Position numbers and translations under genes: made by a program. Shown here piece after piece: positions 28,941 to 29,674 of a stretch of 64,000 nt of DNA (positions are counted from its first letter, which is position 1; every line of letters starts with the position of its first letter). Source of the DNA: Rhodococcus coprophilus NBRC 100603 (lineage in GTDB: Bacteria > Actinomycetota > Actinomycetes > Mycobacteriales > Mycobacteriaceae); NCBI RefSeq assembly GCF_001895045.1, contig NZ_BDAM01000003.1, forward strand, positions 248,001 through 312,000, read 5' to 3'. The notes beneath the pieces were generated by a model that saw only the letters and a list, made by a program, of their open reading frames with translations, was not told the origin of the DNA and did no database searches.

Positions 28941-29261
28941 TCAGGCGTACACCAGTTCTTTTCGCGGTTCGGCGACGACCGTCTTCCGTGGTCGTCCGCG
29001 GGGGCGCTTGCGAGCGACGATCGTGCCCTGGTTGATGATTTCGCCGCCCCACACACCCCACGGTTCTTCGCGGTCCAGTGCTGCCGCGAGGCAGCGTGCG
29101 CGTACGGGGCATCCGGCGCACAGCGATTTCGCCAGTTCCAGATCTGCCGGGGCCTCGGCAAACCACAGATCGGGATCGTCGCCGTGACAGGGCAGGATAT
29201 CGCCCGCACGGATGGTTTTTTCGCCGACACCTGATGCGGTCGAAGGGTTTTCACTCGGCAC
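28941..29261 (-). CDS. whiB7: Redox-sensing transcriptional regulator WhiB7
   Basis: A 106-residue iron-sulfur regulator that binds the principal sigma factor and activates intrinsic multidrug resistance genes. Four cluster-binding Cys are seen (LPCHGDD, then CAGCPVRARC), followed by the GVWGG turn and the C-terminal AT-hook RGRPRK that defines WhiB7. The GTG at 29259-29261 is chosen because TAGGAG lies five bases upstream. The gene carries a roughly 300-base leader with an upstream ORF and an attenuator, and an AT-rich block next to the -35, as expected for autoregulated whiB7. Confidence 0.96.
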   Translation of the reverse strand: MPSENPSTASGVGEKTIRAGDILPCHGDDPDLWFAEAPADLELAKSLCAGCPVRARCLAAALDREEPWGVWGGEIINQGTIVARKRPRGRPRKTVVAEPRKELVYA

Positions 29262-29312
29262 GAGGACTCCTAGAGGTTCGATCGAAAGAGATGCGATGCG
29301 AACTCCGGCCGG

Positions 29313-29355
29313 AAAAGAGAAAGGCCACGGGTCCGCTGGGCGGTTGTCCGTGGCC
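29313..29355 (-). terminator. Attenuator: terminator hairpin in the whiB7 leader
   Basis: On the minus strand GGCCACGG (29348-29355) pairs with CCGTGGCC (29323-29330), and TTTCTCTTTTCC follows, a complete intrinsic terminator about 52 bases before the whiB7 GTG. The 5' arm extended to ten bases (29346-29355) is perfectly complementary to 29401-29410 inside the upstream ORF, giving a mutually exclusive antiterminator. Confidence 0.8.
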
Positions 29356-29370
29356 TGGAGTCGGAAGGGA

Positions 29371-29511
29371 CTACCGCGTAGGTGTCCCGACGAGTCGTCC
29401 GGCCACGGACGAGAAGGCTGCTGCGCGCCGGCGCCATGTACGCGGGACGGCGGCGAATGCGGCGCGCGCCACGACGGGCGCGGCGGCCGCATAGATATTG
29501 ATGCTGATCAT
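29371..29511 (-). CDS. Upstream ORF (leader peptide) of whiB7
   Basis: A 46-codon ORF starting ATG ATC AGC (29509-29511; an in-frame GTG directly precedes it) with GAGGTGG upstream as ribosome site. The peptide begins MISINIYAAAAPVVARAAF and ends VAGRLVGTPTR; it is Ala/Arg-rich with no known domain. Its stop lies 15 bases before the terminator 5' arm. Codons 34-37 contain the segment that can pair with the terminator arm, so a ribosome finishing the ORF would favour termination and one stalled early would favour read-through. Such ribosome-sensing leaders are known for whiB7 in mycobacteria and Streptomyces; peptide sequence is poorly conserved, so assignment rests on layout. Confidence 0.75.
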   Translation of the reverse strand: MISINIYAAAAPVVARAAFAAVPRTWRRRAAAFSSVAGRLVGTPTR

Positions 29512-29571
29512 CACGGGCCACCTCGCTTTCGTCGTCACGCACGGGCTTCTCCCGTGGCAATGCAATACACA

Positions 29572-29609
29572 ATAGTAACGCTGTTGCGATCGGCACAAGT
29601 TATTTTCTA
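29572..29609 (-). promoter_or_regulatory. whiB7 promoter with AT-rich WhiB7-response block
   Basis: On the minus strand an AT-rich TAGAAAATAAC (29599-29609) directly precedes a -35 TTGTGC (29593-29598), with a -10 TACTAT at 29572-29577. An AT-rich block touching the -35 is the known signature of WhiB7-activated promoters, where the AT-hook binds. The 15-base spacer is short, so the exact -10 may differ. Confidence 0.6.
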
Positions 29610-29674
29610 GCTGGGGTTTTGTCGAATTTTTGTCGCGCGTGGTCCGATTCGCCGCTCGCACGCTCACGCGCAAC

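Follow-up and report, generated by a model that had tools for sequence, protein, structure and literature searches.

The leader of whiB7 in Rhodococcus coprophilus NBRC 100603 is very probably an attenuator of the whiB7/wblC type, in which a translating ribosome controls transcription (probability roughly 0.88). This reading is based on the parts of the leader, their conservation, spacing and covariation, and folding energetics. From these we infer the transcription start, translation of an upstream open reading frame (uORF), premature termination, the inducing stresses, a steric block and autoregulation. The leader lies in a 64,000-nt stretch of contig NZ_BDAM01000003.1, which is called the window here and to which the coordinates below refer.

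Parts of the whiB7 leader

The promoter, uORF, antiterminator segment, terminator and whiB7 are all on the minus strand. In the 5' to 3' direction, the order is AT block, -35-like element, -10-like element, a 5' hairpin (P1), ribosome site, uORF, terminator and whiB7, as listed here.

29602..29608, minus strand: AT-rich block AGAAAAT immediately upstream of the -35, a candidate site for the AT-hook of WhiB7
29593..29598, minus strand: -35-like TTGTGC, seen by eye in genus leaders (TTGTGT in some relatives)
about 29569..29574, minus strand: putative -10-like TATTGT, from a by-eye alignment to TAGGCT of relatives
29540..29556, minus strand: 5' hairpin P1, CACGGG-AGAAG-CCCGTG, a pattern in 18/19 genus leaders
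29521..29527, minus strand: uORF ribosome site AGCGAGG
29371..29511, minus strand: regulatory uORF, alanine-rich, 46 sense codons plus stop, MISINIYAAAAPVVARAAFAAVPRTWRRRAAAFSSVAGRLVGTPTR
29401..29410, minus strand: antiterminator segment 2 (e2), GTCCGTGGCC, inside the uORF from the third base of codon 34 to codon 37
29313..29355, minus strand: intrinsic terminator, GGCCACGGACAACCGCCCAGCGGACCCGTGGCC + TTTCTCTTTT, fold of -22.7 kcal/mol
29355-29323, minus strand: terminator stem-loop, with arms e3 (29355-29348) and e4 (29330-29323)
29322-29313, minus strand: terminator T-tract, interrupted
29271-29267, minus strand: whiB7 ribosome site AGGAG
28941..29261, minus strand: whiB7 coding sequence, with a GTG start and a C-terminal RGRPRK AT-hook (Pfam PF02467 Whib, E 4.5e-16)

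The leader stands directly upstream of a whiB7 orthologue, as seen from the Pfam Whib match, the closest relatives and a uvrD2-like neighbour. The closest named relative, in Rhodococcus sp. 105337, is 93% identical, and relatives at an E value of 1e-20 or better were found in 55 of the 61 genomes searched. NCBIfam gave no match to the whiB7 product. The uvrD2-like neighbour encodes a UvrD/HRDC helicase, with the HRDC domain recognised by Pfam, and the second neighbour is what we take to be an ABC1-type kinase gene. Helicase and ABC1-type kinase genes also make up the whiB7 neighbourhood in Mycobacterium, matching the window. A glyoxalase-like gene (PF18029; 29688-30065, plus strand) sits between uvrD2 and whiB7. 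Two other loci (L015 and L018) have the end of uvrD2 about 400 nt closer to whiB7, which may reflect insertion or loss of the glyoxalase-like gene within the genus.

The uORF and its ribosome site are both present in the leader sequence. An in-frame GTG stands immediately upstream of the uORF start, at 29514, and several relatives have a stronger uORF ribosome site of the AGGAGGTGGC type. Alanine accounts for 13 of the 46 codons (28%). Between the uORF and whiB7, a Rho-independent terminator is predicted in silico. A generic terminator scan, with loops limited to 3-8, missed it, and a consensus promoter scan of the region found no sigma-70 site and missed the promoter parts. Rfam over the leader gave no family at the gathering score and three sub-threshold matches. 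When the genome was searched at the DNA level, the sole other match was a weak one of 35 bases to part of the uORF.

The preliminary description of this DNA had listed a promoter block, a 46-codon uORF with a ribosome site and a terminator, and all were found at the coordinates that it gave; it left the minus strand unstated. Its claim of a perfect 10-base complement between 29410-29401, in codons 34-37, and 29355-29346 was exact. In 100 dinucleotide shuffles of the 60 nt upstream, no ten-base complement arose. The 4.55-Mb genome has the pattern GTCCGTGGCC-N20-45-GGCCACGGAC at a single place, which is reported for both strands since the pattern is its own complement; the reversed control gave 0. 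The terminator pattern GGCCACGGA-N8-26-CCGTGGCC was found once in the window genome, in 18/18 genus genomes and in 165/301 family genomes, and the family matches need not all adjoin whiB7. Single matches elsewhere can be due to chance, because the reversed control also matches in 4/18 genus genomes.

Conservation within the genus

Of 128 loci fetched, 127 had a whiB7 match, and removal of seven duplicates (L003, L033, L036, L041, L042, L099 and L100) left 120 leaders, with near-duplicates of one species retained. Nineteen of them, the window included, belong to the genus. Three loci named Rhodococcus (L037, L056 and L076) were counted outside it since they are absent from its 18 genomes. L076 (JOAA01000003.1), labelled Rhodococcus rhodnii, has a WhiB7 and leader like those of the Kibdelosporangium loci L080 and L083, unlike R. 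rhodnii L056, and is possibly a mislabelled assembly.

The AT block, P1 and segment 2 are present in 18 of the 19 genus leaders, segment 2 and the terminator are both kept in the same proportion, and CGTCCGTG is found within segment 2 in 18/19. The AT block stands exactly 52 nt 5' of P1 in all 18 leaders that keep it. The AT-hook of WhiB7 and the AT-rich motif adjoining the -35, with its role, have been described in mycobacteria (PMC3905903). The exception is L034 (= L100; about 1240-1510), an additional copy of whiB7 in Rhodococcus sp. 105337 that is 75% identical to that of the window. Its leader keeps the terminator, but neither an AT block nor P1 nor an intact uORF was recognised there, and it reads as a decayed or differently controlled duplicate.

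The longest complement to the terminator arm has a mean of 8.8 bases in the 19 genus leaders vs 5.3 in shuffles. For segment 2, the complement is 10 bases in 9 leaders, 8 in 7 and 7 in 3, and it lies within 5% of shuffles in 15/19, with the other four at 0.06-0.09.

A uORF with a ribosome site was found in 17/19 genus leaders, with a length of 40-60 codons, and the frame is kept in 17 of the 18 leaders having the other parts. Despite this range of lengths, all 17 have their stop 18-21 nt upstream of the terminator stem. The exceptions to this spacing are L034, which is without the other parts, and the frame-shifted L011. In L011 (G005:C219), the uORF does not share a frame with its usual stop; since this assembly is a draft of 950 contigs, a sequencing error may be the cause. 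Constraint on the peptide is weak, with a pN/pS of about 0.70 over five close leaders, and the window peptide (P0001) had no match in Pfam or NCBIfam; on both grounds, the peptide itself was rejected as the signal. Since the peptide is weakly constrained, it seems that the passage of the ribosome, rather than the peptide, is what matters.

The terminator and segment 2 across Actinobacteria

The terminator GGCC[A/G]CGG...CCG[T/C]GGCC was found in 99 of the 120 whiB7 leaders of Actinobacteria: 19/19 in the genus and 80/101 outside it. By the search rule, it was absent from 21 of the 101 leaders outside the genus, including six Acidimicrobiia-type loci (L092-L097). In the 80 leaders with it, the longest complement to the terminator arm has a mean of 6.6 bases vs 4.9 in shuffles. 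A uORF was picked by rule in 75 of these 80, with 74 of the 75 stops at -14 to -35; the stop was allowed to lie anywhere from -75 to +25, and some picks, e.g., L053, are doubtful.

Position 5 of the terminator stem is A-T in 56 leaders, G-C in 41 and something else in two (n = 99), under a search rule that favoured A or G at this position. A TCCG[T/C]G segment 25-75 nt upstream was seen in 52/99 leaders and not in the other 47. In the A-T class, segment 2 has T in 39 leaders, C in two and both in one; in the G-C class, it has C in 10/10. The association of segment 2 with stem class gave a Fisher p of 5e-9 for 51 unambiguous rows, with relatedness ignored. Across genera, segment 2 tracks the terminator arms. 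The leaders without TCCG[T/C]G at the tested place include 31 of the 41 of G-C type, and several carry another complement, e.g., GCCTCGA against the foot of the stem. The G-C type arms, GGCCGCGG / CCGCGGCC, are found in other actinobacterial leaders (no named Streptomyces among them), often with segment 2 in another register.

The Mycobacterium leaders are a close parallel among the known systems. Like the window, they have an AT-block promoter and an alanine-rich uORF (28-45% alanine in 17/18; in L053, the rule picked another short ORF), and whiB7 stands beside a uvrD2-like end, as judged by eye. The 8-base GTCCGTGG lies near the uORF end in 9/18, and at least the 7-base GTCCGTG is there in 15/18. 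The terminator arms are of the same A-T type as in the window in 18/18, and the uORF stop is 17-29 nt before the stem. Unlike the window, they have another peptide sequence and another terminator loop. The distance from AT block to uORF is 80 nt in 10 of 16 measured Mycobacterium leaders vs 93-95 nt in 17 genus leaders, and in 15 of those 16 the 5' hairpin is weaker than that of any genus leader. A number of non-Mycobacterium leaders have a 5' hairpin in a similar place, near the presumed transcription start, with unrelated sequences.

The preliminary description took both the leader peptide and the alternative fold to be specific to this lineage. The claim about the fold did not hold up. Because the Mycobacterium leaders share the segment and the arms, and segment 2 follows the arms across genera, the fold is, on this comparison, old and not lineage-specific. 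The claim about the peptide survived for its exact sequence, but an alanine-rich uORF with the same segment is found in Mycobacterium too. Only the exact sequence of the peptide and that of the 5' hairpin look genus-level.

Folding and the position of the ribosome

Folding was done with 18 genus leaders, L034 being left out. The ribosome was given an assumed footprint of -15 to +15. For L011, the start used in the stall folds was off by one base, which shifts the assumed ribosome by no more than that. In the window, the antiterminator hairpin has an energy of -38.3 kcal/mol vs -22.7 kcal/mol for the terminator. The antiterminator z-score was below -2 in 18/18 leaders, and antiterminator and terminator are mutually exclusive in silico. 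A hairpin near the uORF stop, between segment 2 and the terminator, is not claimed; its z-score was only -0.8 in the window and ranged from -3.6 to 0.0 in the 18 leaders, with 9 of them at -2.0 or lower.

With the ribosome stalled at the start codon and the second terminator arm still unmade, the antiterminator reached 0.98-1.00 in 18/18 leaders, and a stall at codon 10 gave 0.86-1.00, again in 18/18. A codon scan of the window, which excluded pairs across the ribosome and scored the antiterminator before the terminator's second arm was made, gave 1.00 at codons 1-29, 0.71 and 0.25 at codons 30-31, and 0 from codon 32. Under the assumed footprint, a passing ribosome covers segment 2 at codons about 30-42.

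Once both arms are made, the folds are near balance, with a mean antiterminator value of 0.36 for the start-codon stall and 0.52 for codon 10. At equilibrium of the whole RNA, the terminator exceeded 0.5 in 11/18 leaders with the start-codon stall and in 9/18 with the stall at codon 10; its values in the window were 0.68 and 0.87. Because the terminator often exceeds 0.5 once the whole RNA equilibrates, the models imply that the switch must be kinetic, that is, decided during transcription.

Without a ribosome, the antiterminator formed first (0.70-1.00), and the full RNA was mixed, with the antiterminator at 0.00-1.00 and a mean of 0.61. An untranslated leader therefore gives no clean off state. 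When the window leader was folded over a greater length, up to the start of whiB7, the terminator was present instead. That fold also paired GACUCC, which immediately precedes the terminator arm, with the ribosome site of whiB7; this pairing was dropped because, by eye, relatives did not seem to conserve it.

In the preliminary description, a ribosome that completes the uORF masks segment 2, and this part has to be revised. With the P site on the last uORF codon, the assumed footprint ends 9 nt short of 29401-29410. When a ribosome at this place acted by masking alone, the antiterminator stayed at 0.96-1.00 before the second arm was made (18/18) and above 0.5 afterwards in 15/18 (the exceptions being L005, L013 and L023). 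For a ribosome at the last codon, folding gave the terminator a value of 1.00 because pairs across the ribosome were excluded; the antiterminator is prevented by a ribosome at the uORF end only under this exclusion and not by masking alone. Since masking alone still yields the antiterminator, we infer that its exclusion at the stop codon has to be steric, and the off state depends on this assumed block. With pairs across the ribosome excluded, segment 2 of the window is free for a stall at codons 1-29, partly free at 30-31 and not free at 32-46.

Proposed mechanism and alternatives

In the mechanism that we propose, RNA polymerase would transcribe the leader while a ribosome follows it and translates the alanine-rich uORF. 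During normal growth, the ribosome would pass segment 2 and reach the stop codon, where its leading edge would stand about 5 nt short of the terminator stem. There, it would separate segment 2 from the first terminator arm, so that the two could not pair, the terminator would form and whiB7 would be off. The free RNA on either side of this ribosome, about 9 and 5 nt, would be too short to pair around it, and such a steric block fits the narrow spacing of 18-21 nt between stop and stem. A stall or slowing in about the first 29 codons would leave segment 2 free to pair with the first terminator arm once that is made. With the antiterminator formed, there would be no terminator, and whiB7 would be transcribed. 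WhiB7 would then raise the activity of its own AT-block promoter. The logic of the preliminary description, in which a stalled ribosome leads to the antiterminator and to whiB7 expression, is supported by conservation, spacing, covariation and folding.

The stall could be caused by a ribosome-targeting drug or by a shortage of charged tRNA, most plausibly alanyl-tRNA because 9 of the 13 alanine codons lie in the first 29 codons. Poulton 2024 reportedly described the induction of whiB7/wblC by amino-acid starvation. One alternative is that the uORF is mainly a sensor of alanine starvation rather than of drugs, with the supply of charged alanine as the physiological signal. The 17 genus uORFs found average 32% alanine, with the window at 28%, and the bulk of the window's alanine codons stand where a stall frees segment 2. 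Outside the genus, however, the average over the 75 uORFs picked is 20%, and a number have only 8-15%. Also, any stall in codons 1-29 would do, so drugs should be sensed too. We consider this alternative rather unlikely as the main role of the uORF, although the two signals are mutually compatible. Alanine supply is plausible as a second signal beside drugs, because a response of whiB7/wblC to amino-acid starvation has been reported (PMC11550727) and the uORF is rich in alanine.

Another alternative concerns the 5' arm of P1 (e1), which is able to pair with segment 2 (e2) as well. According to it, once a ribosome has moved past segment 2, this arm (about 29558-29546) pairs with that segment and, as an anti-antiterminator, keeps it from the terminator arm, and a stall between them blocks the pairing. 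The 5' transcript end of the genus would then carry a fourth switch segment that captures segment 2, and the uORF ribosome would gate two competing long-range pairings. We regard this as improbable. Taken as far as the start of whiB7, the window leader has a minimum-energy fold in which the P1 arm pairs with segment 2. When the ribosome stands at the stop, the probability of e1:e2 pairing in the RNA upstream is 0.5 or more in 14/18 leaders, but 0.23 or less in the other four (L010, L016, L017 and L023). The leaders' own e1:e2 energies beat those of permuted partners (p 0.016), but the 8 representatives in that comparison were hand-picked and related. Against shuffled 5' regions, z was below -2 in only 3/17 genus leaders (mean -1.2) and in 1/40 leaders outside the genus (mean +0.2), with 35 of the 92 leaders left out because their AT block was unrecognised. 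Given the choice, segment 2 pairs with the terminator arm. If true, a fourth segment would explain the silence of segment 2 though the stop-codon ribosome does not cover it.

That the terminator is constitutive or Rho-mediated and the uORF incidental is very hard to credit: the peptide is weakly constrained and the T-tract interrupted, but the stop-to-stem spacing is narrow, uORFs of differing length retain the frame and, from genus to genus, segment 2 varies along with the terminator arms.

Relation to known attenuators

The attenuator reading places the leader beside several described systems. Attenuation of whiB7/wblC by ribosome stalling is established in Streptomyces and mycobacteria, as the preliminary description had stated (PMC11550727, PMC9618640, PMC4128351, PMC13236596). 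The uORF attenuator of Streptomyces wblC is described as working like our model for the window, with translation leading to the terminator and stalling to the antiterminator (PMC11550727, PMC9618640). The model also resembles amino-acid leaders of the trp/ilv type, in which the position of the ribosome in a leader ORF picks terminator or antiterminator. Unlike those, the window leader controls a stress transcription factor, and it should respond to a stall anywhere within about 29 codons, rather than at a single run of regulatory codons. Unpublished work on whiB7 of R. jostii is mentioned in one paper (PMC3905903). Among the papers listed for whiB7 with Rhodococcus, or for conserved actinobacterial whiB7 uORFs, no title or abstract opening pointed to a study of a Rhodococcus leader.

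The mechanism is already known, and the Rhodococcus leader adds one more case to the whiB7/wblC class of uORF attenuators, which is widespread in Actinobacteria. The comparative data, namely the narrow spacing between stop and terminator and a segment 2 that tracks both arms, support the published model, and the simple masking picture proved incomplete. By itself, the attenuator does not open up a new mechanism, but it does predict that these bacteria have an intrinsic drug tolerance that can be induced.
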